This document shows positions 8,211 to 58,693 of a stretch of 64,000 bases of DNA, piece after piece (within the stretch, counting starts at the first letter, position 1; each line of letters opens with the position of its first letter). A program made the translations under genes and the position numbers. This stretch comes from a virus. Location of the stretch: the IMG/VR virus record IMGVR_UViG_3300033182_000581, positions 62,001 through 126,000 of that record. One strand, 5' to 3'. The notes beneath the pieces are model-generated. The model was not told where the DNA came from, did not search any database, and saw only the letters and a program-made list of their open reading frames with translations.

Positions 8211-9599
8211 ATGAGTAAAAAGAAAAAGATTCTATTATTATCCGATGATTTGAGATTGCATAGTGGTATCGCAACCATGTCAAAGGAAATTGTATTACAT
8301 ACCTCACATATATACGATTGGATTCAGGTAGGTGCAGCAGTTAAACATCCAGATGAGGGTAAATTCTTTGATGTATCGGATTCAGTAAATGAAGAGGCCG
8401 GCATTGATAACGCAAACGTTAAGATTATACCAATGAGTGGGTATGGTAATCAAGACTTAATTAGACAATTGATTACAACTGAAAACCCTGATGCAATCCT
8501 ACACTTTACTGACCCACGTTTTTGGGATTGGTTATATGCTATGGAAGATGAAATCCGTAGACATATTCCTATCTTTTATTATAATATTTGGGATGATTTA
8601 CCAGACCCACAATGGAATGCACCATTCTATGGAAGTTGTGATTTGTTGATGGGAATCTCTAAACAAACGTATGGTATCAACAAAAGAGTAATGGATAAGT
8701 TTGGTATGACAATGGAAGATTGGCAAATCAAATATGTACCACATGGTGTATCTGAGAAGTTTAAACCAATCTTAAAAGATTCAGATGATTATCAAAAAGT
8801 AATTGATATGAAATCTAAATTGGGTATTGGTGATAAAAAGTTCGTTGTACTATACAACAATAGAAACATTCGTAGAAAGAATCCAGGTGATGTGATATTG
8901 GCATACAAAGAATTTTGTGATACTCTAACACCCGAAGAAGTTAAAGATGTTGTTCTCCTATTCCATACTCAGCAAGTAGACCCAAATGGTACTGATTTGC
9001 CTGAAGTGATTAAGAATGTTTGTCCTGATTATGATGTTCAATTCACAAACTCTCAGTTCTCAACTGATGATTTGAATGTATTATACAATCTTGCAGATGT
9101 TACAATCAATATGGCATCTAATGAAGGATTTGGATTGGCAACTTGTGAATCAGTAAAAGCAGGTACACCAATCGTAGTGAATGTAACAGGTGGGTTACAA
9201 GACCAATGTAACTTTACTATCGATGGTAAGTATATCACAGCAGACCAATATGTTGAATTAGGTTCACTTCACAATCGTAAGAAATTGCCTGAGAATCTAA
9301 GTTGGGGTAGTTGGGTAAATCCAATCTGGCCTACGAATCGTTCTCTACAAGGTTCACCTGTAACTCCATATATCTTTGATGATAGATGTTCGTATGAAGA
9401 TGCAGGTAAGGCATTAAGACAGTGGTATGATACACCAGCAGAACGTAGAACTGAATGTGGTTTGGAAGGTTCTGTATGGGTAAACTCAGTAGAAAGTGGT
9501 ATGAGTGCTAGATATATGGGTCAGAGATTTATTGATTCTATGAATGGTGCATTTGAAAATTGGAAACCAAAAACGGAAGTTACATTATGGAAAATATAA
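8211..9599 (+). CDS. Glycosyltransferase, GT4-like (GT-B fold)
   Basis: 462 residues with a GT-B layout. The N-terminal half begins with a lysine-rich start and 'ILLLSDDLRLHSGIATMS', the nucleotide-sugar transferase opening with a SGI loop. The C-terminal half has 'YNNRNIRRKNPGDVILAY', 'VTINMASNEGFGLATCESVKAG' (the E-x7-E-type donor site) and 'VVNVTGG'. It transfers a sugar from a nucleotide donor to an unknown acceptor. First gene of the glycan block; its stop overlaps the next GT gene by 13 bases. Confidence 0.85.
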   Translation: MSKKKKILLLSDDLRLHSGIATMSKEIVLHTSHIYDWIQVGAAVKHPDEGKFFDVSDSVNEEAGIDNANVKIIPMSGYGNQDLIRQLITTENPDAILHFTDPRFWDWLYAMEDEIRRHIPIFYYNIWDDLPDPQWNAPFYGSCDLLMGISKQTYGINKRVMDKFGMTMEDWQIKYVPHGVSEKFKPILKDSDDYQKVIDMKSKLGIGDKKFVVLYNNRNIRRKNPGDVILAYKEFCDTLTPEEVKDVVLLFHTQQVDPNGTDLPEVIKNVCPDYDVQFTNSQFSTDDLNVLYNLADVTINMASNEGFGLATCESVKAGTPIVVNVTGGLQDQCNFTIDGKYITADQYVELGSLHNRKKLPENLSWGSWVNPIWPTNRSLQGSPVTPYIFDDRCSYEDAGKALRQWYDTPAERRTECGLEGSVWVNSVESGMSARYMGQRFIDSMNGAFENWKPKTEVTLWKI

Positions 9600-10927
9600 A
9601 AAAGTTATGTGTAGTGAGTTGTCCTATTTCGACTCGAAGTGGGTATGGCGCACGAAGTAGAGATTTTGTTAGAGGTTTGATTGAATCTAAACCTGATTGG
9701 GATATTCGAATTCTTTCTCAGAGATGGGGTATGACCGCAATGGATGCTCTTAAAGAAGGTGAAGATGATGATTTATTAAGTAGAATCATTACTGAAAAGA
9801 TGAATACTCAACCAGATGTTTGGATTCAGATTACAGTACCAAATGAGTTCCAACCCGTTGGTAAATATAACATTGGTGTAACTGCTGGTGTAGAAACAAC
9901 TATCATGCCTGCAGAATGTTTGGAAGGTATCAATCGAATGAATAAAGTATTGGTATCATCTGAGTTTACAAAGCAGGTAATTATGAGTTCGGTGTATGAT
10001 AAGAAAGACCAACAAACAAATCAAGCAGTAGGACAGTTGAAATGTAATGTTCCTGTTGAAGTATTGTTTGAAGGTATTGATTTAGAAGTGTACAATGAGA
10101 AAGCACAACCTGAAGAACGAATCAATAATGTAATGAAGGAAATCAAAGAAGATTTCGCATTCTTATTTGTAGGACATTGGTTAAAGGGTGATTTTGGACA
10201 AGATAGAAAAAACGTAAGTGGTTTGATTTGGACGTTCTTACAAGCGTTTCAAAATAAAAAGAAGCAACCCGCATTGATTCTAAAAACATCAGCAGGTTCA
10301 ACATCATTGGTTGATAGAGTTAAGTTGAGAAAAGTAATCCAACAAATCAAAGAGCAAGTTGGTGGTACTAGACTACCAAATATTTATTTACTACATTCAG
10401 ATTTATCCGATTGGGAGATGAATGCACTGTATAATCATCCAAAGGTAAAAGCTCACATATCATTTACGAGAGGTGAGGGTTTTGGTAGACCTTTATTAGA
10501 AGCAACAATTAGTGGTAAACCTATGATTGTAAGTGGTTGGAGTGGACATATGGATTTTATTAATCCAGAATATGTAAGTGTGATAGGTGGTAAATTGGAT
10601 AATGTGCATAAATCGGCTGCAGATAAATTCTTATTAGCAGATGGACAGTGGTTTTCAATCGATTACAACCATGCAGGTAGTGTTATGAGAGATATGTTCG
10701 ATAACTATAAGAAATATTTAGAAAAATCTCGTAAACATCGTAAGTATAGTAAAGATAGATTCTCATTTGATAAAATGATAGAACGTATTGGTGTATTGTT
10801 TGATGAGAGTACGATGGATATCAAAGAACAGCCACAACAGGTTCAGTTAAAACTACCTAAACTTAAAAAAGTTGGTGAAGATAAGAAACCAGAACTTAAA
10901 CTACCAAAATTAAAGAAGGTTAAGTAA
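9587..10927 (+). CDS. Glycosyltransferase, GT4-like
   Basis: 446 residues. 'CPISTRSGYGARSRDFVRGL' is the N-terminal acceptor-side loop, and 'ISFTRGEGFGRPLLEATISGKPMIVSGWSGHMDF' contains the donor-site E-F-G-R-P-L-E pattern (positions about 293-326). The C-terminus carries two repeats of 'LKLPKLKKV', a basic tail that may hold the enzyme to a surface or partner. The upstream in-frame ATG at 9560 would overlap the previous gene further; 9587 is preferred for its normal N-terminus. Confidence 0.82.
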   Translation: MENIKKLCVVSCPISTRSGYGARSRDFVRGLIESKPDWDIRILSQRWGMTAMDALKEGEDDDLLSRIITEKMNTQPDVWIQITVPNEFQPVGKYNIGVTAGVETTIMPAECLEGINRMNKVLVSSEFTKQVIMSSVYDKKDQQTNQAVGQLKCNVPVEVLFEGIDLEVYNEKAQPEERINNVMKEIKEDFAFLFVGHWLKGDFGQDRKNVSGLIWTFLQAFQNKKKQPALILKTSAGSTSLVDRVKLRKVIQQIKEQVGGTRLPNIYLLHSDLSDWEMNALYNHPKVKAHISFTRGEGFGRPLLEATISGKPMIVSGWSGHMDFINPEYVSVIGGKLDNVHKSAADKFLLADGQWFSIDYNHAGSVMRDMFDNYKKYLEKSRKHRKYSKDRFSFDKMIERIGVLFDESTMDIKEQPQQVQLKLPKLKKVGEDKKPELKLPKLKKVK

Positions 10928-11442
10928 TGCTAGGGTATTACAATACACATCTAAGAAAAACATCAGACCCCACTCCAATTACGAAAAGTAAGATGGAGAG
11001 GGGTATGGTTGTTAAGATTAAGTACAAAAAAGATACAGGTACAAAGTTGTATCTAGTATTTGTACTTCAACCTAAATGGCCAAACACTACTGATGGTAAA
11101 TTGCATGGATTATCATTGGATGCAGTATCTCCAGGTAAACTATTAGAGATTGCAGAAATTTACAATGAGGTGATGTCTAAATCATCAAAGGTGAAACGAT
11201 TAGATTTGGCTAAGATTCAAATCAATGAAGCATCTAAGGTGTTCTACACATCAGAGATTAAAACCGAAAAACAATTAAAAGCTGCGTATCGTACATTTAA
11301 CCTTTTGGATATCAAATCGGTTCAGGCGGTAAATTATGATTGGGGTAAATATGATAAGATTCCATCAGCCGCAGAACGTAGAGCACAATTAGAAGAAGAG
11401 GCAAGATTACGACAAGAATCAGAACAAAACAAATTAAAGTAA
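10927..11442 (+). CDS. Hypothetical protein, beta-barrel-like core with charged tail
   Basis: 171 residues. The central part 'GMVVKIKYKKDTGTKLYLVFVLQPKW...LHGLSLDAVSP' reads as a small beta-barrel of the kind seen in conserved T4-like phage proteins of unknown role. The last 25 residues are a charged, glutamate/glutamine-rich helix. Its start overlaps the upstream glycosyltransferase stop by one base, so it is probably co-expressed with it. Confidence 0.6.
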   Translation: MLGYYNTHLRKTSDPTPITKSKMERGMVVKIKYKKDTGTKLYLVFVLQPKWPNTTDGKLHGLSLDAVSPGKLLEIAEIYNEVMSKSSKVKRLDLAKIQINEASKVFYTSEIKTEKQLKAAYRTFNLLDIKSVQAVNYDWGKYDKIPSAAERRAQLEEEARLRQESEQNKLK

Positions 11443-11443
11443 A

Positions 11444-12064
11444 ATGAAAATTAGTTATGCAATCCCAGTTTGTAATGAGCATGTAGAAATACAAAGATTG
11501 GTATCATTTCTACTAAAACACAAACAAACTGAAGATGAAATTGTTATATTTTTTGATTCGAACAATGGTTCAAAATCAGTAGAAGAATATCTCAGAAGTC
11601 ATTCTGTAAATGGTGAGTTTAGTTGGCACCCATATCCATTTGATGGACATTTTGGGAATATGAAAAATAAACTTAGTGAAATGTGTGATGGTGATTACAT
11701 CTTTCAGATTGATGCCGATGAATTGCCTGATATTGGTTTGATGGAAAACATCCATAGTATTCTTAATATGAATGATGTTGATGTTGTATTAGTACCAAGA
11801 GTAAATACAGTCGCCGGCCTAACTGAATCTCACATTTATAAGTGGAAGTGGCAAGTGAATGATAATGGGTGGGTAAATTGGCCTGATTTACAATGGAGAA
11901 TCTACCGTAACTCAGATGATATCAAATGGGAAAACAAAGTACATGAAGTATTGAGTGGATACAAAACAATATCACATTTACCGTTAACTGAAGAGTTGGC
12001 GTTACATCATCCAAAAACAATCGAACGACAGGAGAAACAAAACGCGTATTACGATACGTTATAA
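11444..12064 (+). CDS. Glycosyltransferase family 2-like (GT-A fold)
   Basis: 206 residues. 'ISYAIPVCNEHVEIQRLV' is the GT2 opening, 'DEIVIFFDSNNGS' the nucleotide strand, and 'YIFQIDADELPD' the metal-binding DxD motif near residues 87-94. 'WRIYRN' and 'WENKVHEVL' resemble the acceptor region of SunS/WaaE-type GT2 enzymes. Adds a sugar to a glycan or protein acceptor. No transmembrane segment is present, so it is likely soluble and cytoplasmic. Confidence 0.82.
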   Translation: MKISYAIPVCNEHVEIQRLVSFLLKHKQTEDEIVIFFDSNNGSKSVEEYLRSHSVNGEFSWHPYPFDGHFGNMKNKLSEMCDGDYIFQIDADELPDIGLMENIHSILNMNDVDVVLVPRVNTVAGLTESHIYKWKWQVNDNGWVNWPDLQWRIYRNSDDIKWENKVHEVLSGYKTISHLPLTEELALHHPKTIERQEKQNAYYDTL

Positions 12065-12067
12065 GTT

Positions 12068-13810
12068 ATGCATAAAGTAGGTATAATCGGTAAGGGTTAC
12101 TTTGGTAAAAAGATACACTCAACACTCAAATCATTTTGTGATATCAAATTCTTCACTGGAAGAGAGATGGATATTACATATGATATTGATTGGGTAGTTA
12201 TTGCATCTTCAACCGAATCTCATTATGAATTAGCAAAAGATTTCATCCAAAGGGGCATAAACGTCTTTGTTGAAAAACCAATGACTCCAACATATGAACA
12301 ATCTAAAGAGTTGGTAGATTTATCAAAAAAGTACAATGTAAAGTTGTATGTTGATGATGTATTTTTGTATCACCCAACATTACGATGGATTGCACAATAT
12401 GACCCTAAAGTTATTAGGTTCGAATGGAGAAAATATGGTTCATTTAATGATAATATTTTTAATAATTTATCATATCACGATTTATATATAGTATTACACT
12501 TAGGATACGATTTATCAGGAGATATTCATATCAAAACAAATAGAGTAAACGAAAAAGAGTTTAGTATTGGTGATATTGAATTTTATTATGATAGGACTAG
12601 TAAAAATAAAACTAAACAGGCATTCGGTGGTGGGTTCAGTTTTGATTTCAAAACAAATTTAAATCTACTTACTTTTATGTTTCATCAGGTGTTTGATGAA
12701 AAGGTATCTTTCGAATCAAACAATAAAATGGCATTAGAAGTTAATTCTATATTGGATAGATTGAATGAATATAAACCAAAAGTAGCGGTAATTGGGGCCG
12801 GTATCTTTGGAGTTACATCAGCACTTAAATTAGATGGTGATTTTGATGTAACATTATTTGAACAAAATAGTGATATATTACAAAACGCAAGTTCTATAAA
12901 CCAATATAGATTACATAGGGGGTATCATTATCCACGAAGTGTTGATACTGCTGTATCTGCTAAGCATGGTACTGAAACATTTTTGAAAGAATATCCATGT
13001 GAATTGGAATCATCAAATCAACATTATGCAATCGCATCATTTGGTTCAAAAGTAAATTCAGAAGAATACGAATCTTTTATGAATAGTGTGGGTTTAGAAT
13101 ATGAAGAAGTTGAAAGTGATTTAGTAGTTGATACAAGTATAGAAAAATTATACAAAGTTAATGAGGGATTATTTGACCCAAAAAAGTTGTATGATATGTG
13201 TAAGAGTAGATTGGATGATTCTAATATAAAAGTACTATTCAACCAACAATTCAACCGTATACATGAGTTGGAATATGATTATATAATCAATGCAACATAT
13301 TCTAATCTTAATCAAAATTCAGAAAAGCAATCGGATTATCAATTTGAGATTTGTGAGAAACCATTGATTAAGTTGCCGGAAAAATATAAAGGAGTTGGTG
13401 TTGTGATTATGGATGGCCCATTTATGTGTATAGACCCATATTCTGATACCGATTACCATATAGTTGGAAATGTGGTTCATACAATTCATCATACAAATGT
13501 GGGTAAAATCCCTGAGATACCTCAGAAGTTGAAAGGGTTATTAAATAAAGGTATTGTTAAAAACCCATCGATTACAAAATGGAATAGATTCAAAGAAACA
13601 TTAAGTGAGTTTTTTACTGATGTTGATGGTGTAGAACACATTGGTTCTATGTTTACAATCAGAACTGTATTATCTAATAGAGATTATGATGATGCAAGAC
13701 CTAGTATAGTTGATAAAGAATCTAAAAGTAAATATCTAATATTTTCAGGTAAAATATCAACCGCGGTTGATACTGCAAATGAGTTGTACAATTATATAAA
13801 AAAGAGCTAA
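12068..13810 (+). CDS. Fusion: Gfo/Idh/MocA-type oxidoreductase + FAD-dependent oxidoreductase
   Basis: 580 residues made of two dinucleotide-binding enzymes. Residues 1 to about 235 begin 'VGIIGKGYFGKKI' (GxGxxG for NAD(P)) and carry 'VFVEKPM', the Lys-containing signature of Gfo/Idh/MocA sugar dehydrogenases. From about residue 238, 'VAVIGAGIFGVTSAL...FEQN' opens a DAO-type FAD domain with 'QYRLHRGYHYPRS'. Each half is close to full size. The pair probably performs successive redox steps on a nucleotide sugar or sugar acid. I know of no standard family with this order. Confidence 0.8.
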   Translation: MHKVGIIGKGYFGKKIHSTLKSFCDIKFFTGREMDITYDIDWVVIASSTESHYELAKDFIQRGINVFVEKPMTPTYEQSKELVDLSKKYNVKLYVDDVFLYHPTLRWIAQYDPKVIRFEWRKYGSFNDNIFNNLSYHDLYIVLHLGYDLSGDIHIKTNRVNEKEFSIGDIEFYYDRTSKNKTKQAFGGGFSFDFKTNLNLLTFMFHQVFDEKVSFESNNKMALEVNSILDRLNEYKPKVAVIGAGIFGVTSALKLDGDFDVTLFEQNSDILQNASSINQYRLHRGYHYPRSVDTAVSAKHGTETFLKEYPCELESSNQHYAIASFGSKVNSEEYESFMNSVGLEYEEVESDLVVDTSIEKLYKVNEGLFDPKKLYDMCKSRLDDSNIKVLFNQQFNRIHELEYDYIINATYSNLNQNSEKQSDYQFEICEKPLIKLPEKYKGVGVVIMDGPFMCIDPYSDTDYHIVGNVVHTIHHTNVGKIPEIPQKLKGLLNKGIVKNPSITKWNRFKETLSEFFTDVDGVEHIGSMFTIRTVLSNRDYDDARPSIVDKESKSKYLIFSGKISTAVDTANELYNYIKKS

Positions 13811-13811
13811 T

Positions 13812-15239
13812 ATGCAGTTTTGGAGAACATTAGATAACAAAGTATACCCGGCCGGTGAAGTTAGTTCATTAGGGTTTCCAATAGATGACCCATCTTACAT
13901 TCCTGATGAGTATTTAGAAGCACAAAACTTTGTGATTCTGAGAACTTGTTTTGGGGTTGGTGATTGGGGAATCATTTCAGCATTTCCACAAAAGTTAAAA
14001 GAAAAATATCCCGAATGTAAAGTGTGGATTCCATCACCAAAATTGCTTCGTGAGATGTTTGGACACCTTGAACAAAACTGGTCTTCTTGGGATGACCCAT
14101 TTCAAGTAGTTCATACTATCTTCGACCACAACCCATATGTGGATGGATTTATTGATTCGTTTGAAGGGGAGGTGTTCAATGACCACTATCGTATTACGGA
14201 TGGTGGGGATGTTCCTCTTATGGAAGAAATCCTTAAATTTTGGCAATTTGATAACTTTGAGAAAATTGAGCCGGAATTGTATTGGACTGATGAGGAAAAA
14301 GAGTTTGGAGACAATATCATCAAAGAACATACGGATGGTGAATTTGGAACTCTTCTAATTTCAAATAGGTTTGATGGGACTGGTATTGAAAAGATTCAAA
14401 AGACATTGGATTGGTACAAAGCTCTACCTATATTCTATTGGACTAAATCGGTGGATGTTGATTTAGAGTTTAAAAAAGGATTGGATATGAGGCATATTGA
14501 TACTCGTATTCAGTTGTATATCAAAACTCAAGCAAAGTTCAATGTAGGTAATCAGACTGGTATGAATGATACCATTGCAAACTACTCACCGACCTTCACC
14601 GTTGCCCGTGGTAAACTTGGGTCTAACTTTATTAGAAGTCAACACTACTTGGAAGATACGATTGACCAAATTTTAAATCAAATTCCTGATAAATGGGATA
14701 GTAAAACAACTACCTCGAAGAAATGGAAAACTGATTTGTATAATTTCTGCAAAGAGAATGATGTAAAATCAATCTTGGAGATTGGAACATCATTGGGACA
14801 TACTACATACTTTGTAGCACACTTTGTTGATAAGGTTACTACAGTTGAGGTGGATTTTAATAGAGTTGAGAAGGCGAAGAAATTATCAGAGAAACATAAT
14901 AACATTCATTTTATATGCCAAAGTGCATATGGTAGAGAATGGGATTTCGGATATCACGATTTAACAATAATTGATTGTATACATGAATACGATTATGTTA
15001 AAATGGATATCGATAACGCAATTAAATTAGGAACTAAGTATATCGCATTTGATGATTATGGATTGTTTCCTGAAATAAAACAAGCAATTGATGAATATAT
15101 TTCTGAGGGGAAATTGGAAGTGGTATCTAAAATTGGATATCCCAAAGGAACTCACTTCTATATGTCTTTATCAACAAACACCACATCAGATAAGGTTTTA
15201 GCTGATAGTGAGGGTATAATTTGTAAAGTAGTATTATGA
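13812..15239 (+). CDS. Fusion: GT9/heptosyltransferase-like domain + SAM methyltransferase
   Basis: 475 residues. The first 300 or so resemble ADP-heptose:LPS transferase-like GT-B proteins: 'FVILRTCFGVGDWGIISAFPQKLKEKYP' at the start and 'FNVGNQTGMNDTIANYSP' as the donor-site segment. From about residue 312, 'NDVKSILEIGTSLGHTTYF', 'VTTVEVD' and 'YHDLTIIDCIHEYDYV' form a class I SAM methyltransferase. A combined transferase and methyl-capping enzyme for a glycan is plausible. The N-terminal assignment is less sure than the C-terminal one. Confidence 0.7.
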   Translation: MQFWRTLDNKVYPAGEVSSLGFPIDDPSYIPDEYLEAQNFVILRTCFGVGDWGIISAFPQKLKEKYPECKVWIPSPKLLREMFGHLEQNWSSWDDPFQVVHTIFDHNPYVDGFIDSFEGEVFNDHYRITDGGDVPLMEEILKFWQFDNFEKIEPELYWTDEEKEFGDNIIKEHTDGEFGTLLISNRFDGTGIEKIQKTLDWYKALPIFYWTKSVDVDLEFKKGLDMRHIDTRIQLYIKTQAKFNVGNQTGMNDTIANYSPTFTVARGKLGSNFIRSQHYLEDTIDQILNQIPDKWDSKTTTSKKWKTDLYNFCKENDVKSILEIGTSLGHTTYFVAHFVDKVTTVEVDFNRVEKAKKLSEKHNNIHFICQSAYGREWDFGYHDLTIIDCIHEYDYVKMDIDNAIKLGTKYIAFDDYGLFPEIKQAIDEYISEGKLEVVSKIGYPKGTHFYMSLSTNTTSDKVLADSEGIICKVVL

Positions 15240-15922
15240 AAAATTTAAAATCTTTAATGGAAACTGATTTAGGTGTAAATGCTGAGGTTTTATTAAATTT
15301 AATAAAAACGAAAGAAAACTCAATATTTGTAGATTTAGGAGTGCGTGATGGAAACTCATCTACTATTTTTTTAGAAGGTTCTACTGAACGTGAAAACAAA
15401 GTATATGGTGTGGATATTTCGTTTGAAACGTGTTCTACTAAAATAAAAAAACACCCCAACTATACTATGATTGAAAACGATTCTGTCATCGCTGGTGATG
15501 AGTGGGATGGTGGTGAAATAGATGTACTATTCGTAGATACCATCCATTCAGAACCACATGTAATGTGTGAATTACACAAATGGTATCCCCATATGAAAAA
15601 GGGTGGTTCGATTGTATTTCACGACTCTAATTGGCCCGATGGTAAAATTTATAAACCTATGGGGAAATCTTTTGGTAGGGTTGATACTGCGATAAAAAAA
15701 TTCTTCAATATTGATACTTTAAACTTTGTAGATGATAATATTGATGTAAAAACGTATCCTAAATCTTGGGGAATGACATTTATCAAACTACTAAAAAAGT
15801 ATGATTACATTGGTGATGTATCCGATTGGGATTCTATCTATGAGGAGCGGGCCGAGTTAATTGAGTTGTCAATACAAAACGGAGGAAGAACGACATCTAA
15901 ATTAAGTAAATTTATAAAATGA
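15236..15922 (+). CDS. Class I SAM methyltransferase (Methyltransferase_24/CmcI-like)
   Basis: 228 residues. 'SIFVDLGVRDGNSSTIFL' is motif I, 'VYGVDISF' motif II, 'IDVLFVDTIHSEPHVM' and 'MKKGGSIVFHDSN' the later strands, with His/Asp residues typical of the metal-assisted O-methyltransferases near cephalosporin hydroxylase and rhamnosyl O-methyltransferase. It likely methylates a sugar hydroxyl. It overlaps both neighbours by four bases (ATGA). Confidence 0.78.
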   Translation: MKNLKSLMETDLGVNAEVLLNLIKTKENSIFVDLGVRDGNSSTIFLEGSTERENKVYGVDISFETCSTKIKKHPNYTMIENDSVIAGDEWDGGEIDVLFVDTIHSEPHVMCELHKWYPHMKKGGSIVFHDSNWPDGKIYKPMGKSFGRVDTAIKKFFNIDTLNFVDDNIDVKTYPKSWGMTFIKLLKKYDYIGDVSDWDSIYEERAELIELSIQNGGRTTSKLSKFIK

Positions 15923-16617: not shown

Positions 16618-16619
16618 TT

Positions 16620-18047: not shown

Positions 18048-18871
18048 AAGTATTAGTTACAGGTGGCGCGGGGTTCGTAGGAACAAATCTTATTAAACAA
18101 TTGTTGGAAGATGGTCATACCGTTATATCAATTGATAATTACAGTACTGGTTTAAAAGAAAACCATCAAGAGGGTTGTTTCTATCTCGAAGGTGATGTTC
18201 GTAAGTTTGATTTGCCATTTGAAGTAGATGTGGTTTTTCATATGGCTGCAGTTGCAAGAATCCAACCATCATTTGAAAGACCTGATGATTACATTACTAC
18301 AAATTTTAATGGAACGTATGAAATTGTTAAATTTTGTGTAGAGCGAAATGTTCCATTGATTTATGCAGGTTCATCATCTAAACATAGTGGTAGATTCAAA
18401 AATCCATATACATTCTCAAAAGATTTGGGAGAGGATATCATCACATTGTATCAGAAACATTTTGGATTAAACGCAACTATCACAAGATTTTATAATGTAT
18501 ATGGGCCGCACCAACTAACTGAAGGGGGATATACTACATTGATTGGTAGATGGATTCATAATATTGAAAATGGTATTCAATGTGAGATTTATGGAGATGG
18601 TGAACAAAGAAGAGATTTTACTCACGTTGATGATATTGTAAGTGCATTGATGATGATAATGTATCAGAAAGAATACGGACATGAGTTTGAACTTGGTAGA
18701 GGTAAAAACTATTCTGTAAACGAAATTGCAGATATGTTTGGTATTACTCCTATATATAAAGAGGCAAAACCAGGTGAGGCAAGAGAAACCTTAAACACCG
18801 ATGATGCAGCTTATGATGTGTTGGGGTGGGTTGCAACTACAAATATTGAAGATTATATAAAAGAGTTATGA
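18044..18871 (+). CDS. NAD-dependent sugar epimerase/dehydratase (extended SDR, GalE-like)
   Basis: 275 residues. 'VLVTGGAGFVGTNLIKQL' is the GxxGxxG cofactor loop, 'VISIDNYSTG' the NAD-selecting strand, 'VFHMAAVA' the conserved HxAA segment, 'YAGSSSKHSG' the catalytic Ser region and 'YTFSK' the Tyr-x3-Lys pair near residue 125. 'RRDFTHVDDIVSAL' near 192 is the classic late motif. It interconverts or modifies a UDP/GDP-sugar for the neighbouring transferases. The length is slightly below GalE (about 330). Confidence 0.88.
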   Translation: MKVLVTGGAGFVGTNLIKQLLEDGHTVISIDNYSTGLKENHQEGCFYLEGDVRKFDLPFEVDVVFHMAAVARIQPSFERPDDYITTNFNGTYEIVKFCVERNVPLIYAGSSSKHSGRFKNPYTFSKDLGEDIITLYQKHFGLNATITRFYNVYGPHQLTEGGYTTLIGRWIHNIENGIQCEIYGDGEQRRDFTHVDDIVSALMMIMYQKEYGHEFELGRGKNYSVNEIADMFGITPIYKEAKPGEARETLNTDDAAYDVLGWVATTNIEDYIKEL

Positions 18872-19632
18872 AAAACGTAGTATTCATACCAAATGTTGAT
18901 TTAGGAAATGGTCGTAGTACACCATACCACTACTCAGTAAAGAGTTGGAAAAAATGGTGTGATATGAATGGTGTTGAGTTCATTGAATGGACTGAACCAA
19001 TTACCGATGTATCTCATTTTAAGATAACCCTTCAGAGATATTGGGTACATGATATATTAGAACATAATGGTATTGATTACGACCAGGTTTTAATTGTCGA
19101 TGCAGATACTATTATTCACCCAAATACACCTAATTTTTTTAATGAAACAAATGGTAAGTTTGGAGTGGTTCTAAATAACGGATGTTATGAATGGACTACC
19201 AGAAGTATTAAGAATTGGGGAAACGCATTATTTAAGGAACAACCCAAATTGAATACTTGGGAATATTTCAATGGTGGGTTTCAAATCACAAATAAATCAC
19301 ATATACCATTTTACAAAGAGGTTCAGAAATATTATTGGGATAATATCGAAACTATCAATATGTGGAATGATAGAATCAAAGCAGGTACTGACCAAACAAT
19401 TATTAACTATCTTACAAAACTACATAAGATTGATGTAACTTATATGAGTGAGTGTTATAACCTACAAGACCTATTCAGAAAAAATCTATTATATATACCA
19501 AATCATTCTTGGTGGAAAGATGAGTTGAGGTTCTTAGAAGCGGGATGGGTATATCACTTTAATGCAATTCCATCAAACCCAAGAGATGTATCATATTGGA
19601 TGGAACGTACATATAAACATTTATACGAATGA
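18868..19632 (+). CDS. GT-A glycosyltransferase (GT8-like)
   Basis: 254 residues. 'YDQVLIVDADTIIHP' near residues 71-85 holds the DxD motif, 'YFNGGFQI' and 'AGTDQTIINYLTK' follow in the order seen in GT8-type and related retaining transferases. Starts by ATGA overlap with the epimerase gene and ends the same way into the next transferase. Specific sugar unknown. Confidence 0.72.
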   Translation: MKNVVFIPNVDLGNGRSTPYHYSVKSWKKWCDMNGVEFIEWTEPITDVSHFKITLQRYWVHDILEHNGIDYDQVLIVDADTIIHPNTPNFFNETNGKFGVVLNNGCYEWTTRSIKNWGNALFKEQPKLNTWEYFNGGFQITNKSHIPFYKEVQKYYWDNIETINMWNDRIKAGTDQTIINYLTKLHKIDVTYMSECYNLQDLFRKNLLYIPNHSWWKDELRFLEAGWVYHFNAIPSNPRDVSYWMERTYKHLYE

Positions 19633-20555
19633 AAGTAGCATTTTTTACTGAGATGGGATTCAATGGTAAAGTACCAAGAACCCATAAGAATATGAGAACT
19701 GAGTTTGCGTGGATGGTTTCGTTGGAAGCAGACCATTATAATCTGAATGATACACCACAACAATTTTATCAGTTGGGTATTGTAATCACTCCAAAGAATT
19801 CACCTGAAAAAGTTGATGTTGGTAGATTGAAACATTTTTGCAACCAGATTGCTGTGATGCAAGAGGGCCCATTTTGGTACTTCCAAGATTACGAACTATC
19901 AAATCAGATTCACTATTTTAATAATTTAGTTGAAGCTGATATCATATATGCACATAATAAGCAGGATGCTAAATATTATAAGGGGTTAACAAATCACAAA
20001 GATGTTAGAGTTTTACAATCATTGATGATAAAAGATGCTCTTTGGGATATCCAAGAACAACATCCTGAGGGTAGAGATGGTATTATGATTGGTGGTAATA
20101 TGAAGAGTTGGTATGGTGGTTTTGATTCATTTATGTTAGCATCTTCAGTAACCGATGAAATCTATTCACCACAAATGGGTAGACGGCAAGATGGTGAGAG
20201 TGAGTTGGGTATTACTCAATTACCATATTTAGAATGGGATAAGTGGATTTCCGAACTAAGTAAGAGAAAGATAGGTATCCATATGATGAGAACTCATGCA
20301 GCTGGTACGTTTGCAATGAATTGCTCTTATTTAGGAATCCCTTGTGTTGGTTATAGAGGATTAGATACACAAAGGGAGTTACACCCAAATCTATCAGTAG
20401 AGGATGGTGATTTGGATACTGCAAGAGAATTAGTAAAAAAGTTGTGGAATGATTTGGATTTCTACGAAGAAAATCGTATATTAACAGTTAAGTTGTATAA
20501 AGAAAAATACTCTGAAGAAGAGTGGAAAAGAAAGTTTTATAATGAGTTTAAGTAA
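19629..20555 (+). CDS. Glycosyltransferase, GT-B type
   Basis: 308 residues. The C-terminal half 'KRKIGIHMMRTHAAGTFAMNCSYLGIPCVGY' is a donor-binding region with an altered E-x7-E pattern, followed by 'ELVKKLWNDLDFYEENR' typical of the closing helices of GT4 enzymes. The N-terminal half starts 'VAFFTEMGFNGKVPRTHKNMRTEFAW'. Its stop lies inside the following cupin gene (14-base overlap). Confidence 0.72.
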   Translation: MKVAFFTEMGFNGKVPRTHKNMRTEFAWMVSLEADHYNLNDTPQQFYQLGIVITPKNSPEKVDVGRLKHFCNQIAVMQEGPFWYFQDYELSNQIHYFNNLVEADIIYAHNKQDAKYYKGLTNHKDVRVLQSLMIKDALWDIQEQHPEGRDGIMIGGNMKSWYGGFDSFMLASSVTDEIYSPQMGRRQDGESELGITQLPYLEWDKWISELSKRKIGIHMMRTHAAGTFAMNCSYLGIPCVGYRGLDTQRELHPNLSVEDGDLDTARELVKKLWNDLDFYEENRILTVKLYKEKYSEEEWKRKFYNEFK

Positions 20556-20563
20556 AAAAGATA
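20531..20563 (+). repeat. 33-bp direct repeat, copy 1 (at the cupin gene start)
   Basis: Bases 20531-20563 match 24539-24571 with one mismatch. The segment spans the start codon and first codons (MSLSKKD) of both downstream proteins. Confidence 0.8.
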
Positions 20564-20904
20564 ATTATAAAGAAGAAAGACCGTGGGGTGATTTTGAAAA
20601 CCTCTTAGATAATGATAAGTGTAAAGTCAAAAGAATTGTAATTAAACCTGGTCATGCACCAAGTTATCAATACCACTTTAAAAGGTCTGAAGTTTGGATT
20701 TTAGTAGAGGGTAGTGGTGAGTTAAAACTTAATGATGAACTACACAATGTAACTGTAGGTGATGTATTACAAATTCCAGTTGAAGCAAAACATCAAATGA
20801 AAAATACGGGTGGTACGGATTTAGTATTTATTGAAGTTCAGTTAGGTACTTACTTTGGTGAAGATGATATTGTTAGATTAGAGGATAACTATGGTAGAGT
20901 ATAA
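20542..20904 (+). CDS. Cupin, type II mannose-6-phosphate isomerase-like domain
   Basis: 120 residues. 'ERPWGDFENLLD' is the RPWG motif. 'IVIKPGHAPSYQYHFKRSEVWILVEGSGEL' is the cupin metal box, and the C-terminal 'YFGEDDIVRLEDNYGR' is nearly diagnostic for the isomerase domain of ManC. Bacterial ManC fuses this domain to a GDP-mannose pyrophosphorylase; here it stands alone, directly followed by a separate nucleotidyltransferase gene. Probably isomerises a hexose phosphate for nucleotide-sugar supply. Confidence 0.87.
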   Translation: MSLSKKDNYKEERPWGDFENLLDNDKCKVKRIVIKPGHAPSYQYHFKRSEVWILVEGSGELKLNDELHNVTVGDVLQIPVEAKHQMKNTGGTDLVFIEVQLGTYFGEDDIVRLEDNYGRV

Positions 20905-22435
20905 GGTACTGATAACAACAAGTGGTATTGGTAGTAGATTGGGTAAACTCACCAACTATACAAATAAATGTTTAGTTAGGGTGGGTGATATTCCTGCGAT
21001 TTCTCATATAATCGAAAGTTATCCATTAGATACTAAATTTGTAATAACTTTAGGTCATTACGGTGATTATGTAAGGCAGTTTTTAGAACTGACTTATAAT
21101 GATAGGAATTTTACATTTGTGAATGTAGATAAGTATGAGGGAGATGGTAGTAGTTTGGGATATTCAATACTCACTGCCAAATCAGAACTACAATGTCCAT
21201 TCATATTTCATGCAAGTGATACGATACTTCCAAATTTAGAAATACCCAATACAAATTCGAATTGGTGTGTTGGTGCATACAAAAAAGAAACATCTCAATA
21301 CAGAACCTTAAAGATAAGTAATGGGTATGTAGATACTATCAATGAGAAAGGTGAAATCAACTTTGATTATCCATATGTTGGTGTATGTGGTATTAACGAT
21401 TATAATCTATTTTGGGAATGTTTAGAGGAATTGGATAATCATCATGGGTTATCAGATGCACACGTAATCAACAAAATGTTAAACCACAATACTGAGTTCA
21501 AATTTTATGAAGCAAAACTTTGGTTAGATATTGGAAATACGAATGAACTTAATAACGCCAGAAATCACTTTGGCCAAACAATTGATGTGTTAGATAAAGA
21601 GAATGAATCTATTTTCTTCTTTGAAGATTTTGTGGTAAAGTTTTTCTCAGATACTAAAGTTAACCAGAATAGAGTAAAACGGGCTGAATTATTAAATGGA
21701 TTAGTTCCTACTATTTTGGGTAGTACAGAAAACTTCTACAAATACAAAAAGGCAGATGGTAAGTTATTTTCTAAATCAGTAAATACAAAAAGTTTTTCTA
21801 AGTTTTTAGATTGGGCTCAAAGTGAATTGTGGATACCATCAATTAAATCAACAGGTGATTCTGATTTTAACAATCTTTGTTGGGAGTTCTATATAGATAA
21901 AACCAAAAAAAGAGTTCTTCAATATTTGGATGGAAAATCAGATACACCTCAATTAATCAATGGAGTTGAAATTCCATCTGTATTAGATATTATAGATTCT
22001 TTAGATAAAGAATGGTTGACCGATGGATTGCCATCTCAGTTTCATGGGGATTTTATTCTTGATAATATCATAGAAACTCAGAATGGATATACATTAATAG
22101 ATTGGAGACAGGATTTTGGTGGAGATTTGGAAGTGGGTGATATTTACTACGATTTAGCAAAGTTAAATCACAACTTAGTAGTTAATCATGAAATAGTATC
22201 AAATGGTAACTTCAATTCAGATACTGATAATTGTTACATATTGTGTAATTCAAAATTAGTTGAGTGTACAAATATCCTACATAATTTTATAAAAACTAAA
22301 GGATATGATTTGAAAAAGGTAAAGGTGTTGACTGGAATCATATGGATTAATATGGCACCATTACATGAATATCCATTTAATAAGTTTTTATTCAATTATG
22401 GAAAATATATATTAACAAAGGAATTAGGGTTATGA
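20891..22435 (+). CDS. Bifunctional nucleotidyltransferase + choline/aminoglycoside kinase-like protein
   Basis: 514 residues. The N-terminal domain opens 'VLITTSGIGSRLGKLTNYTNKCLVRVGD', a nucleotidyltransferase loop in which a typical G-x-G-x-R-L is kept. 'YEGDGSSLGYSI' and 'LWLDIGNTNEL' are further landmarks. From about residue 250 it is kinase-like, with 'SQFHGDFILDNII' (catalytic HGD-x4-N) near 385 and 'LIDWRQDFGGD' (Mg-binding D) near 404. The combination recalls LicC plus LicA for phosphocholine-type decoration, or a sugar kinase plus pyrophosphorylase. Substrate unproven. Confidence 0.8.
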   Translation: MVEYKVLITTSGIGSRLGKLTNYTNKCLVRVGDIPAISHIIESYPLDTKFVITLGHYGDYVRQFLELTYNDRNFTFVNVDKYEGDGSSLGYSILTAKSELQCPFIFHASDTILPNLEIPNTNSNWCVGAYKKETSQYRTLKISNGYVDTINEKGEINFDYPYVGVCGINDYNLFWECLEELDNHHGLSDAHVINKMLNHNTEFKFYEAKLWLDIGNTNELNNARNHFGQTIDVLDKENESIFFFEDFVVKFFSDTKVNQNRVKRAELLNGLVPTILGSTENFYKYKKADGKLFSKSVNTKSFSKFLDWAQSELWIPSIKSTGDSDFNNLCWEFYIDKTKKRVLQYLDGKSDTPQLINGVEIPSVLDIIDSLDKEWLTDGLPSQFHGDFILDNIIETQNGYTLIDWRQDFGGDLEVGDIYYDLAKLNHNLVVNHEIVSNGNFNSDTDNCYILCNSKLVECTNILHNFIKTKGYDLKKVKVLTGIIWINMAPLHEYPFNKFLFNYGKYILTKELGL

Positions 22436-23379
22436 GTAATGTAAAATATTTTATCGGGCCCATGACAAAGAATGTTGTAGATGCCATTTTAGAATTTTCA
22501 GAAGAAACTGAAAATGTTATTGGATTTATACCATCTCGTAGACAAGTAGAGTGGGATGGTGGATACGTTAATAATTGGACTACAAAAGAATTTTCGGAAT
22601 ATGTAAACGGTAGATTACCAATTAAAAGAGACCACTCAGGCCCTGGCCAGGGATATATTGATGATGATGGATTTGAATCACTTAAAGAAGATTGTAAGTA
22701 TTTAGATTACATTCATATAGACCCCTGGAAAAAATATCCAAAATACGATGATGGGTTGGATTGGACTGTAAAAATGATTGAGTTCTGTTATGAGTTAAAT
22801 CCTAATATTCAGTATGAGATTGGAACTGAACAGGCTATTAGAGAGTTTGATGCAGATGAGTTAGATGACTTTGTTAATGATGTAAACAAAAGATTACCAT
22901 TTCAGATATTCAAAAAAATAACACATTTAGTAATACAAAGTGGAACATCTTTAAAAGGAAATGTAAATACGGGCGAGTATGATTCTGAGAGATTAACTGA
23001 GATGTTGGATGTTGCATCAAAATGGGGATTGATATCAAAAGAACATAATGGTGATTACATACCCGTTGAATTAATTAAAGAAAAAATGTCATTAGGATTA
23101 GATTCCATAAATATCGCGCCAGAATTTGGTTTAATTGAAACAATTTCGTATATTGAATCAAATATTGATATCGATAAGTTTTGGAAAATATGCTATGATT
23201 CAAAAAGATGGGAAAAGTGGGTAGATGATTCATTTGACCCTATCAACCAAAAAGAAGATTTGATTAAGATTTGTGGACATTACGTTTTATCTCATCCAGA
23301 TTTTATATCTATTAAACCAGATATTGATGATGTTATAAAACAAAATGTAAAGAAAAAGTTATATGAGTTATACAGATAA
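22432..23379 (+). CDS. TIM-barrel aldolase-like protein (GatZ/KbaZ-like)
   Basis: 315 residues. 'IPSRRQVEWDGGYVNNWTTKEF', then 'IKRDHSGPGQG', then 'YIHIDPW' and 'NIQYEIGTEQ' follow the strand order of the tagatose-bisphosphate aldolase GatZ/KbaZ group (Q-x-GGY, GGDH-GP, K-HLD, E-GTE). The match is at the level of motif order, so it is moderately secure. In glycan clusters such proteins may make or modify a rare sugar phosphate. ATGA overlap with the upstream bifunctional enzyme supports a shared pathway. Confidence 0.6.
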   Translation: MSNVKYFIGPMTKNVVDAILEFSEETENVIGFIPSRRQVEWDGGYVNNWTTKEFSEYVNGRLPIKRDHSGPGQGYIDDDGFESLKEDCKYLDYIHIDPWKKYPKYDDGLDWTVKMIEFCYELNPNIQYEIGTEQAIREFDADELDDFVNDVNKRLPFQIFKKITHLVIQSGTSLKGNVNTGEYDSERLTEMLDVASKWGLISKEHNGDYIPVELIKEKMSLGLDSINIAPEFGLIETISYIESNIDIDKFWKICYDSKRWEKWVDDSFDPINQKEDLIKICGHYVLSHPDFISIKPDIDDVIKQNVKKKLYELYR

Positions 23380-23734
23380 ACGGCCCCTTACTATTTTTTG
23401 TGATATTGATGGAACGTTGGTAAAGCATAGTAAACCAACCGATTCTCAAAAACCAACTCATACCTTAGAGTTACTTGATGGTACTTTAGAAAAATTATTG
23501 GAGTGGGATAAGATGGGATACAATATAATACTAACAACCGGTAGGAAAGAAAGTTTACGTTCAGTTACAGAATTGCAGCTAAGTAAAGCCGGTATCATAT
23601 ATGACCAATTGATTATGGGTATTGGTGGTGGTAAACGATATCTGATTAATGATAGAAAACCATATGGTACTGGGGATTACGCAGTTGCAATTAATATCGA
23701 TAGAAATGTAGGTATTAAAGATTTAGAATTATGA
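23363..23734 (+). CDS. HAD-superfamily phosphatase (small, capless)
   Basis: 123 residues. 'IFCDIDGTLV' (residues about 11-20) is the nucleophile motif, 'ILTTGRKESLRSVTE' motif II, and 'YLINDRKP' the late acidic motif. The same fold and many residues recur in the protein at 34889-35242. It probably removes a phosphate from a sugar phosphate made by its neighbours. It overlaps the aldolase-like gene by 17 bases. Confidence 0.82.
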   Translation: MSYTDKRPLTIFCDIDGTLVKHSKPTDSQKPTHTLELLDGTLEKLLEWDKMGYNIILTTGRKESLRSVTELQLSKAGIIYDQLIMGIGGGKRYLINDRKPYGTGDYAVAINIDRNVGIKDLEL

Positions 23735-24492
23735 AAGTAGCATTGTGTTTTTATGGATTATTGGGTAGTGTAAAAGGAAAATCAGGTGATGCTGAAAAAA
23801 GTTCATCTGATGTTTTGGATATTGCGTTTAATCATGTTAAAAAACACATATTAGATGTAAATGATATAGATGTCTTTATACACTCTTGGGATGTAGATTT
23901 GAAAGAAGAGATAGTATCTTTATACAAACCAAAGGGTAGTAAGTTTGAACAAACCAAAACATTTAAAATAGAACCACCATTAACAGATACTCGTAGAGTT
24001 CAGAACCATTATAGTAGATGGTACTCTTGTAGAGAAGTAATGAGATTAAAGAAAACGTATGAGATTGAAAACAATTTCAAATATGATTTTGTAGCACTAT
24101 CTCGACAAGATATTGCGTGGCAAACTGATGTTGATTTTTCAAAGTTTGATACAAATTACTTTTATGTACCAAATTGGAGACAACAATTCAATGGTGCACA
24201 AATGGGATGGCCACATGGTGCATACAATCGCTCTTTACAAGATATTTGGTGTTTTGGTAATTCAGATGATATGGATAGATTTGTAGACATATATGAAAAC
24301 ATACAACAATACAGTATTGATAATCCAGACCTGATGGGTAATAAAGGTATATCAAATCACAGATTAATGTATCATCAATTAGTTCTTATGAAAATATTAC
24401 CATTAAGATTAAAGTTTGCGTTCAATCACGATTTAGTAGAACGTTCTGATATGCCGTTAGTAAGGTATAAGTTTTTTGGAGATACAACATAA
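23731..24492 (+). CDS. Hypothetical glycan-cluster protein, possible glycosyltransferase
   Basis: 253 residues. 'VALCFYGLLGSVKGKSGD', 'IDVFIHSWDVD', 'YDFVALSRQDIAWQTDVDFS' and 'DIWCFGNSDDMDRF' form a pattern common in unnamed capsule-cluster proteins that are probably GT-A-like. 'SRQD' may act as the metal-binding motif. Last gene before a promoter. Confidence 0.6.
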   Translation: MKVALCFYGLLGSVKGKSGDAEKSSSDVLDIAFNHVKKHILDVNDIDVFIHSWDVDLKEEIVSLYKPKGSKFEQTKTFKIEPPLTDTRRVQNHYSRWYSCREVMRLKKTYEIENNFKYDFVALSRQDIAWQTDVDFSKFDTNYFYVPNWRQQFNGAQMGWPHGAYNRSLQDIWCFGNSDDMDRFVDIYENIQQYSIDNPDLMGNKGISNHRLMYHQLVLMKILPLRLKFAFNHDLVERSDMPLVRYKFFGDTT

Positions 24493-24493
24493 A

Positions 24494-24525
24494 TTTGGAT
24501 AATTCAAATATTATTCGTATATTAG
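24494..24525 (+). promoter_or_regulatory. Bacteroidota-type promoter before the last GT2 gene of the block
   Basis: TTTGG 24494-24498, 19-base spacer, TATATTAG 24518-24525. It splits the 8.2-25.7 kb block, making the final transferase separately expressed. Confidence 0.75.
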
Positions 24526-24538
24526 TAGTTAAAATAGA

Positions 24539-24571
24539 AAAGTTTTATAATGAGTTTAAGCAAAAAAGATA
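24539..24571 (+). repeat. 33-bp direct repeat, copy 2 (at the GT2 gene start)
   Basis: Matches 20531-20563 except for one T to C change. Here it lies 14 bases after a promoter. Confidence 0.8.
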
Positions 24572-25746
24572 TAAGTTTTATTACTCCCAGCAGAAACAAT
24601 CTAAAATATTTGAAATGGGCGTATGACTCAATCAGAAAGAACGCCGGAGAAGAACCAACCATTTGTGTTGCTGATGATTTCAGTAACGATGGAACTTGGG
24701 AGTGGTGTAAGGAAATGATGGAGAAAGACCCAAATTTTAAAGCAATCAGAAACGAAGGCCCAACCAGATTAGGACATACAATCTTATATGATAGATTGAT
24801 TAACGAAGTTGCGTCAACAAAGATTGTGGGTATCTATCATGCAGATATGTATCTTTGTCCAAATGCATTGGAATCGGTGTTAAAACATATCAAACCGTTG
24901 AGTGTAGTATCACTCACGCGTATTGAGCCAGATTTACATCCACCAGGGCCTGAGAAAGCATTGATTAAAAATGCACCAACTGAACCTGAAGATTTTGATG
25001 AGAATTGGTTCTTGAACTATTTTGATAGTGAATATTTACCAATGGCTAAAAATAAAACTACTGATGGTATATTTGCACCCTGGTTCTTATTCAAAGAAGA
25101 TTTTCAATCAATTGGTGGACATGACCCGTTATATGCACCACAATCAAAAGAAGATTCTGATATATTCAACCGATTCCTTTTGAATGGATACAAACTTATT
25201 CAGACGTGGGAAGGTGCTGTGTTTCATTTGACTTGTAGGGGAAGTAGATATAACCCAACTCTAACTGAAGTAGGTAAAGAATCAGATGAGTGGTTGGCAC
25301 AAAACATTCGTTCTACTCGCAACTTTATCAGAAAATGGGGCCACTTTGTAAAGCATGATGCATATATGATGCCAATAGTACCACCAAAGTATGATATTCA
25401 ATTCAATATTGAAAATGGAAATGAGAAGTTATTGAATATGTTAGAACCCTGGTGTAGTAGGATTGTGATTGATTTGGATAAAGATAAAATCAAAGAATAT
25501 ATTGATTTAGAACAACCAAATACTCAGTTTGATTTGACCAAAAGAATCAATGTAGATGTAGATTCGGATATTGAAATTAGTTTCGATGCAAATAAATTAA
25601 CCCAATATTCATATAATATCATAACTGAGTTATCTATGATACTTGAGAACTCTGAAATTGAGGTTGGTGAGTTTGAATTGGATATATTTAGAGTGAAAGT
25701 AAATAAAGTAAAAACATACGAAAATTCATTGATTCATTTAAAATAG
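24550..25746 (+). CDS. Glycosyltransferase family 2
   Basis: 398 residues. 'ISFITPSRNNLKYLKWAYDSIRKN' is the GT2 opening, 'CVADDFSNDGTWEW' the nucleotide strand, 'VGIYHADMYL' the DxD-like site (HADM), and 'GGHDPLYAPQSKEDSDIFNRFLLNGYKL' the ED catalytic-base region near 215. The last 120 residues ('LNMLEPWCSRIVIDLDKDKI' onward) are an unrelated extra domain of unknown role. Its first seven codons are shared with the cupin gene through the 33-bp repeat. Confidence 0.85.
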   Translation: MSLSKKDISFITPSRNNLKYLKWAYDSIRKNAGEEPTICVADDFSNDGTWEWCKEMMEKDPNFKAIRNEGPTRLGHTILYDRLINEVASTKIVGIYHADMYLCPNALESVLKHIKPLSVVSLTRIEPDLHPPGPEKALIKNAPTEPEDFDENWFLNYFDSEYLPMAKNKTTDGIFAPWFLFKEDFQSIGGHDPLYAPQSKEDSDIFNRFLLNGYKLIQTWEGAVFHLTCRGSRYNPTLTEVGKESDEWLAQNIRSTRNFIRKWGHFVKHDAYMMPIVPPKYDIQFNIENGNEKLLNMLEPWCSRIVIDLDKDKIKEYIDLEQPNTQFDLTKRINVDVDSDIEISFDANKLTQYSYNIITELSMILENSEIEVGEFELDIFRVKVNKVKTYENSLIHLK

Positions 25747-58665: not shown

Positions 58666-58693
58666 TACTGTAATAATGAGAAAGGATAAACAT

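Follow-up and report, generated by a model that had tools for sequence, protein, structure and literature searches.

The T4-like virus record IMGVR_UViG_3300033182_000581 (169 kb) carries a glycan gene block whose ends are conserved among related phages, whose middle is a gene-level mosaic and into which, as sequence comparison indicates, five genes were inserted as one unit. Four of these five genes form a module that is found repeatedly, in 74 viral loci. That T4-like phages can carry large glycan gene blocks is already known, as the earlier note on this DNA stated; the conserved ends with a mosaic middle, the single-unit insertion and the recurrent module are new here. We give about an even chance to the reading that the cassette assembles a glycan in the cytoplasm, with stem glycosyltransferases, a variable extension, a dedicated donor-sugar module and, as the most likely acceptor, a virion protein.

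Gene content of the block

In the window, the 64,000 nucleotides analysed here (positions 62,001 to 126,000 of the record), the block comprises 18 open reading frames between 8211 and 25746, named below by their start positions. All lie on the plus strand and are packed as one operon, with overlaps at 12 of the 17 gene junctions and a sole gap above 3 nt, of 57 nt, directly 5' of the last gene (24550). Nearly all encode sugar enzymes. The earlier note had placed a phage-borne glycan block at exactly these boundaries, which is confirmed; its genes are consecutive as described, but number 18 rather than about sixteen. The same operon genes occur in the same order in independent contigs, and a chance origin is therefore not credible. 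A gp44-type clamp loader and a capsid protein homologous to gp23 of Flavobacterium phage vB_FspM_immuto (MW353176) mark the record as T4-like, and a long run of glycosyltransferase and sugar genes inside such a genome is what characterizes the glycan/LPS clusters of T4-like phages. The phage is a large marine one, probably with a host in the Bacteroidota.

Five glycosyltransferases have profile support (8211, 9587, 11444, 15919, 24550). Four more (the N-terminal half of 13812, 18868, 19629 and 23731) were called at motif level, and no Pfam, PHROGs or PDB profile search established them, including Pfam and PDB searches made with alignments; the "seven or more" glycosyltransferases of the earlier note hold with these calls but not by profiles alone. 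The epimerase, ManC-type isomerase, nucleotidyltransferase-kinase, HAD phosphatase, dehydrogenase fusion and two methyltransferase modules (13812 C-terminal; 15236) that it listed all have profile matches, those of the HAD protein below cut-offs, and most of its domain calls proved real. It was also right that flippase and polymerase are absent: a hydropathy scan of the block found neither transmembrane segments nor multi-helix membrane proteins, and across the 169-kb record it turned up no multi-spanning protein resembling a flippase or polymerase. The initiating transferase PF02397 was not found by profile search either, so that all three hallmarks of a Wzx/Wzy-dependent capsule or O-antigen locus are missing.

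Conserved edges and mosaic middle

The block opens with a core pair of GT4-type glycosyltransferases. The first (8211..9599, +; PF00534 3.2e-10, phrog_2170) has a homologue in 82 of 82 related loci compared, all fetched by the second core glycosyltransferase, and is 49% identical to its immuto counterpart. For the second (9587..10927, +; phrog_2170 4.2e-18, PF00534 5.6e-5, below cut-off), viral contigs yielded at least 569 relatives; four large records retrieved through the GatZ gene, and not through a glycosyltransferase, also encode a homologue. The second gene starts with ATG at 9587; a longer form from TTG at 9560 is an alternative. The following small protein (10927..11442, +) has no assigned function and no family match in Pfam and PHROGs profile searches; it is conserved, being 70-94% identical across 11 close relatives, and a hypothetical gene occupies the equivalent place in immuto. 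Family 2 glycosyltransferases flank the variable part, at its left edge 11444..12064 (+; PF00535 3.8e-8), with homologues in 66 of the 82 loci, and at its right edge 24550..25746 (+; PF00535 8.9e-14), 47% identical to the immuto protein in the matching place. Among relatives, the edge genes are mostly 64-94% identical while the middle genes come and go, and in some relatives, such as L021, the middle is short.

The variable middle begins with a Gfo/Idh/MocA dehydrogenase fused to a DAO-type FAD oxidoreductase (12068..13810, +; PF01408 6.5e-17, PF01266 5.5e-9), which occurs in only some relatives. It is followed by a fusion of a region that appears GT9-like by eye with a C-terminal methyltransferase (13812..15239, +; methyltransferase profiles at 293-454), whose homologues in many relatives consist of the N-terminal part alone (~308 aa), without the methyltransferase domain. 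Next come a methyltransferase of the Methyltransf_24 / rhamnosyl O-methyltransferase-CmcI type (15236..15922, +; PF13578 7.1e-14, PF04989 3.3e-7) and a TOD1/MUCI70-type glycosyltransferase (15919..16617, +; PF04765 9.3e-15, phrog_26101 2e-17). The two-part protein 16620..18047 (+), which the earlier note did not single out, has no family match in Pfam and PHROGs profile searches. By eye it contains a nucleotidyltransferase-like motif in its middle, and its C-terminal half is kinase-like by fold (Foldseek E ~1e-4 to protein kinases over ~170 residues); its AF2 model is of moderate quality (pLDDT 75.9), and the N-terminal part of this model had no Foldseek match. A nucleotide-sugar epimerase/dehydratase of the SDR type (18044..18871, +; PF01370 3e-46, phrog_540 1.7e-65) is 62% identical to its immuto homologue. 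Two putative glycosyltransferases complete this part: 18868..19632 (+), GT8-like by eye through a DxD motif (VDADT) alone and with no Pfam or PDB profile match, and 19629..20555 (+), possibly of GT-B type (weak BshA match, E 0.17) and with 25% identity to an annotated mannosyltransferase of immuto.

The homologous block of immuto (~49.1-59.9 kb) likewise sits after a PD-(D/E)XK nuclease, in the same place, and shares both GT4 genes, the GT2 gene, the epimerase and the final GT2 gene (47-62% identical). Its middle also consists of sugar genes, a methyltransferase included, but differs in having WecE-type aminotransferases and in lacking the cupin, nucleotidyltransferase-kinase, GatZ-like and HAD genes described below. 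The LPS clusters of the T4-like cyanophages P-SSM2, S-SSM7 and S-SM2, which belong to a different phage lineage, are also big sugar-gene clusters in a plastic T4-like region, with an unproven role; the accounts of them, in the parts available to us, mention neither conserved edges nor a GatZ module. More than ten years after phage glycan clusters became known, no role has been assigned to them; the contrast of conserved and variable genes suggests how the genes divide into those for a common stem and those that determine the outer sugar.

Insertion and recurrence of a proposed donor-sugar module

The five genes at 20542-24492 are flanked by 33-nt direct repeats (left copy 20531..20563, +; right copy 24539..24571, +; 97% identical, spacing 4008), and in a module-less relative (L180) a single repeat copy joins the homologues of 19629 and 24550. 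These two observations argue that the genes were inserted as one unit, at a point that the repeat resolves to within 33 bases. The left copy provides the start codon and first seven codons (MSLSKKD) of 20542; another relative (L100) has the module and one repeat copy. The junction points to recombination at a gene start as a way in which sugar modules move between phages.

The first module gene encodes a PMI-type cupin, the ManC C-terminal domain (20542..20904, +; PF01050 3.8e-29, TIGR01479 C-terminal part 5.5e-32). This domain defines type II phosphomannose isomerases, and the protein is a predicted ketose-/aldose-6-phosphate isomerase. The second is a fusion of a nucleotidyltransferase and an APH-type kinase (20891..22435, +; PF01636 1.1e-5, Arch_glmU-like 1e-9) with conserved catalytic motifs. 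The third (22432..23379, +) is GatZ/KbaZ-like by AF2 and Foldseek, the fourth a HAD phosphatase (23363..23734, +; PF03767 6e-6, TIGR00099 3.5e-7, both below cut-offs). A putative glycosyltransferase (DUF7796/phrog_13607; 23731..24492, +; phrog_13607 1.6e-17), for which six of 11 homologues match DUF7796, was inserted along with them.

In all of the 74 viral loci except three edge-truncated ones, the GatZ-like gene adjoins the nucleotidyltransferase-kinase. The cupin, tallied per domain so that fused forms are included, is separate in 34 loci and fused to the nucleotidyltransferase-kinase in 31, and about 50 of the 74 have a HAD gene close to module genes 2 and 3. Catalytic residues of the module are kept across diverse viral sequences. 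Bacterial copies sit in polysaccharide-type clusters (L198-L200). Of 11 marine Flavobacteriaceae genomes with a related GatZ-like gene, only one has the kinase gene; GatZ alone therefore need not feed the route proposed below. Our literature search found no report of a viral GatZ or tagatose route.

The earlier note had called 22432 aldolase-like. Weak KbaY-type sequence matches had made a class II aldolase a candidate, but GatZ is the better match in both fold and residues. The AF2 model (pLDDT 95.7) has 3txv and 2fiq as best Foldseek matches (TM 0.76-0.79, E 2e-13 to 1e-14), and D67, H68, E133 and H205 are invariant in 32 sequences. E. coli GatZ/KbaZ converts fructose-6-phosphate to tagatose-6-phosphate, with an active site modelled as Asp87, His88, Glu171 and His257 (PMC11907403). 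The four invariant residues match this zinc ligand/base set, the DH and H..DY motifs by alignment to 3txv and E133 through the GTE motif rather than residue by residue. No direct match to PF08013 (GatZ/KbaZ) was above the Pfam cut-off for 22432; a 28%-identical homologue, the Listeria protein L014:7923-9188, does match this family. Because the GatZ/KbaZ fold and catalytic residues are present, 22432 is probably a fructose-6-phosphate C4-epimerase and not an aldolase. It probably shares C4-epimerase chemistry with the E. coli proteins, from which it differs in length (~315 versus ~420 residues) and in context, since its gene belongs to a glycan module and theirs to a hexitol catabolic operon.

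A possible route to a nucleotide sugar

Judged from these enzyme families, the block 20542-23734 may provide a dedicated sugar donor. The GatZ-like protein would epimerize fructose-6-phosphate at C4 and the cupin would convert the ketose-6-phosphate to the aldose-6-phosphate; the HAD enzyme would then take off the 6-phosphate, the APH domain of 20891 would phosphorylate the anomeric carbon, and its nucleotidyltransferase domain would make the NDP-hexose. Phosphatase and anomeric kinase would stand in for the usual phosphomutase, which would make the path from fructose-6-phosphate to NDP-hexose mutase-free. AmgK is an APH-type kinase. MupP, AmgK and MurU in muramic acid recycling are the precedent for this combination (PMC5371407), leading from a sugar-6-phosphate to an NDP-sugar via HAD phosphatase, anomeric kinase and nucleotidyltransferase; here, kinase and transferase are fused, an isomerase and an epimerase are added, and MurNAc is not indicated as the substrate. 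The 31 loci with cupin and nucleotidyltransferase in one chain also resemble bifunctional ManC (GMP-PMI), but with reversed order (cupin first), an extra kinase and a module without phosphomutase.

We infer substrates, order of steps and sugar identity from the enzyme set, and only tentatively, as a somewhat doubtful proposal, do we suggest that the module, as an insertable block traded among many phages, leads on its own and in a way not described before from fructose-6-phosphate to a rare, galacto- or talo-configured NDP-hexose. If so, a nucleotide sugar would be made in a new way, viruses would be employing a GatZ-type epimerase, and virions would display a rare sugar that the host need not make. 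The closest solved relatives of the 20891 nucleotidyltransferase are cytidylyltransferases, so the product could instead be a CDP-linked polyol. The earlier note saw a nearly complete path leading from sugar phosphate to a methylated glycan; as an inference, this is reasonable for one nucleotide sugar (20542-23734).

Acceptor and alternative roles

In the glycan assembly proposed here, 8211, 9587 and 11444 would probably assemble a shared stem, and the acceptor that bears it would be carried along with the phage. The variable transferases would extend this stem, the conserved GT2 24550 would close the cassette, and the methyltransferases would cap or modify sugars. The variable genes appear to be traded between phages blockwise, and related virions would therefore bear different outer sugars. 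That immuto and Mel-JY01, phages with recorded hosts from different phyla, share the core glycosyltransferases favours a phage-encoded acceptor, most likely a virion protein. The recorded host of Mel-JY01 is a cyanobacterium and could be mislabelled. Host lipid-linked glycans are further possible acceptors for soluble glycosyltransferases.

Similar gene sets in pelagimyophages (PMC7029224) and cyanophages (PMC9602691) are usually read as host-surface modification. Soluble glycosyltransferases would extend or cap cytoplasmic LPS or capsule intermediates, which the host would export, and superinfection would be blocked or the receptor altered. The hypervariability of the middle suits host serotype matching, and the polysaccharide-type surroundings of the bacterial module copies point the same way. 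However, the missing flippase, polymerase and initiating transferase, the conservation of the core pair across recorded host phyla and the smaller benefit of recoating for a lytic phage than for a lysogen leave this role possible but rather unlikely. The core pair could also glycosylate phage DNA at hydroxymethylated pyrimidines, with the variable genes diversifying the DNA-linked glycan. Replication genes lie near the pair, the protein G000:52205-52903 resembles the CMP hydroxymethylase MilA (E 8e-5), and virus glycosyltransferases that hypermodify DNA with diverse glycans are reported by Pyle et al. 2024, as cited in PMC12619734. Yet in immuto and Mel-JY01, which share the pair, the search for a dCMP hydroxymethylase led instead to a ThyA that is canonical, judged by eye on its LPFN motif, and to a protein resembling ThyX. 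Among 10 large records with the pair, moreover, seven lack a thymidylate synthase-family gene and only one has a distant match to the 52205 protein, and we regard DNA as an improbable acceptor. A further reading treats a large part of the cassette as cargo, genes of host origin that fill a plastic region and are unnecessary for a phage glycan. It recalls the "stuffer DNA" raised by Sullivan et al. for cyanophage LPS clusters (PMC3037559) and would agree with the short middle of some relatives; intact, overlapping reading frames, retained catalytic residues and conserved edges make it very improbable.

For the favoured virion-protein acceptor, immuto is an isolated relative with a cultured host, Flavobacterium sp. 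LMO8, which makes the question directly testable. Outside the block, the window encodes a further glycosyltransferase of the DXD sugar-binding type (41226..41954, +; PF04488 3.7e-11).

Gene content of the glycan block

The block (8211-25746; genes are named by window start) lies in a virus record of 169,380 bases, of which the window spans bases 62001-126000. It comprises 18 ORFs, all on the plus strand, which overlap at 12 of 17 junctions, and the single gap of more than 3 nt is the 57 nt ahead of the last gene. Profiles support a Gfo/Idh-DAO fusion, two methyltransferase domains, an epimerase, a PMI-type cupin, a nucleotidyltransferase-kinase fusion and an HAD protein. The seven or more glycosyltransferases of the earlier note hold for five by profile (8211, 9587, 11444, 15919, 24550); the N-terminal part of 13812 as well as 18868, 19629 and 23731 are four further putative ones, recognized by motifs only. 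A hydropathy scan detected no transmembrane segments in any block protein and, in the rest of the record, picked out one tape-measure-like and one holin-type protein, plus a few others that are small or unassigned. The suggested lack of a flippase or polymerase was borne out, as the scan revealed no such protein in block or remaining record; the initiating transferase family PF02397 is also absent from the record. Outside the block, 34889-35242 encodes another HAD protein, which looks by eye like a close paralogue of HAD 23363.

A recurrent module with a GatZ-like protein

The product of 22432, previously described as aldolase-like, is GatZ-like instead. Its AF2 model (pLDDT 95.7) has as top two Foldseek matches 3txv and 2fiq (TM 0.76-0.79), both titled (putative) tagatose 6-phosphate kinase, which we take to be GatZ/KbaZ-family structures; true class II aldolases rank lower (TM 0.51-0.60), and aldolase identity was therefore rejected. 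Residues D67, H68, E133 and H205 are invariant across 32 diverse sequences. By motif (GTE for E133), they correspond to the Zn ligands and base in the modelled active site of E. coli GatZ, an enzyme that turns F6P into tagatose-6-phosphate (PMC11907403).

With 22432 as query, 76 viral loci were retrieved and 74 parsed, in all of which, except three truncated at an edge, the nucleotidyltransferase-kinase adjoins the GatZ-like gene. In 34 of the 74 the cupin has a gene of its own, and in 31 it is fused to the nucleotidyltransferase-kinase N-terminus; every fused form, and no separate one, is accompanied by a shikimate dehydrogenase-like gene (PF08501). An HAD gene is nearby in about 50 of 74, and in one locus (L153) its place is taken by another protein, which carries the motif FDLDDTL. 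This fusion and constant company suggest that the module genes encode successive steps of one pathway. We infer the sugar, the nucleotide and the step order: the GatZ-like epimerase would act first, followed by the isomerase, the phosphatase, an anomeric kinase and finally nucleotidyl transfer, the last three steps having a precedent in MupP, AmgK and MurU (PMC5371407). Among solved structures, cytidylyltransferases are the nearest to the nucleotidyltransferase, so a CDP-linked polyol is an alternative product.

Whole-module copies occur in three bacterial loci with polysaccharide-like surroundings (L198, Flavobacteriaceae; L199; L200). Beside the module, L198 encodes a 1016-aa protein (9833-12883) that apparently begins as a nucleotidyltransferase and also has PPDK_N/PEP-utiliser domains. 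Most marine Flavobacteriaceae matches (L186-L197, L201) hold the GatZ-like gene alone, mostly adjoining apparent succinate dehydrogenase genes (by eye), and the kinase was not found in 10 of 11 such genomes. In the tree, these stand-alone genes nest among viral ones.

Large LPS-type clusters of T4-like cyanophages (PMC3037559), pelagimyophage glycosyltransferases (PMC7029224) and viral PMI (PMC9602691) are already known. A literature search of incomplete coverage returned no description of the present module, or of any GatZ-type epimerase, in phages.

Probable insertion at a 33-nt repeat

The isomerase, nucleotidyltransferase-kinase, GatZ-like, HAD and 23731 genes are flanked by a pair of 33-nt direct repeats at 20531-20563 and 24539-24571 (97% identical, 4008 apart). 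In the related locus L180, the 19629 and 24550 homologues are neighbours, with a single copy at the join between the end of the former and the start of the latter; the same adjacency is seen in L185 and L176. Another relative, L100, has the five genes behind a different version of 19629 (43% identical), and its single repeat copy lies where 24550 begins. The window matches L180 as far as 20563 and L100 thereafter, which locates the crossover at the repeat. Because the repeat takes in the 24550 start region, the window isomerase begins MSLSKKD, as 24550 does; that of L100 begins directly at MNYKEERPW. Since 19629 adjoins 24550 in three relatives, insertion of the five genes is, by parsimony, likelier than their loss.

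Mosaic structure and acceptor

The block is a mosaic, like bacterial surface-glycan loci. In Flavobacterium phage vB_FspM_immuto (MW353176), the same PD-(D/E)XK nuclease precedes a block in which the two GT4 enzymes, the GT2, the epimerase and the final GT2 have homologues in unchanged order, with other genes in between. The second GT4 (9587) has at least 569 relatives on viral contigs. Among 82 loci holding it, some of them truncated, 8211 was found in all and 11444 in 66; 12068, 15236, 15919 and 16620 each occur in only 0-2. Across 13 close contigs, edge genes are 64-94% identical (two more distant contigs excepted), yet the middle varies gene by gene, through presence, absence or replacement.

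Both core glycosyltransferases (8211, 9587) are common to phages whose recorded hosts are Flavobacterium and Microcystis (the latter label being the record's own), and all 11 large records contain the second. As such hosts have different surface glycans, this sharing favours a phage-encoded acceptor. Virion glycosylation is reportedly documented for mycobacteriophages by Freeman et al. 2023, as cited in PMC12619734. DNA is a less likely but conceivable acceptor: of 10 large records with the glycosyltransferase, 7 lack any thymidylate synthase-family gene, but this phage itself encodes a CMP hydroxymethylase-like protein (G000:52205; MilA, E 8e-5). Outside the window, G000:C1:52205-55237 consecutively encodes this protein, an asparagine synthase-like amidotransferase and a PLP-dependent enzyme, which may together form an island for hypermodifying nucleotides or DNA bases.

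Other features of the record

A truncated thymidylate synthase (58087-58299) matches the canonical ThyA N-terminus over its first 70 codons (PF00303, 9e-22) and then stops; no continuation was found nearby, and we read it as a remnant or recombination scar. The neighbouring 57719-58090 encodes a small protein with an MGS-like domain (PF02142, 2e-14), which by eye is a methylglyoxal synthase, here in a phage. A phage GroEL (37170-38777) is 45% identical to that of immuto, and the GroES homologue is encoded at a separate site of the record (G000:131321-131617). A MoxR/CbbQ-type AAA protein (61426-62694; PF07728, PF08406) adjoins a large protein with, by eye, a VWA-like C-terminus (58676-60856), and the two resemble the pair of CobS/CobT type that T4-like phages carry.
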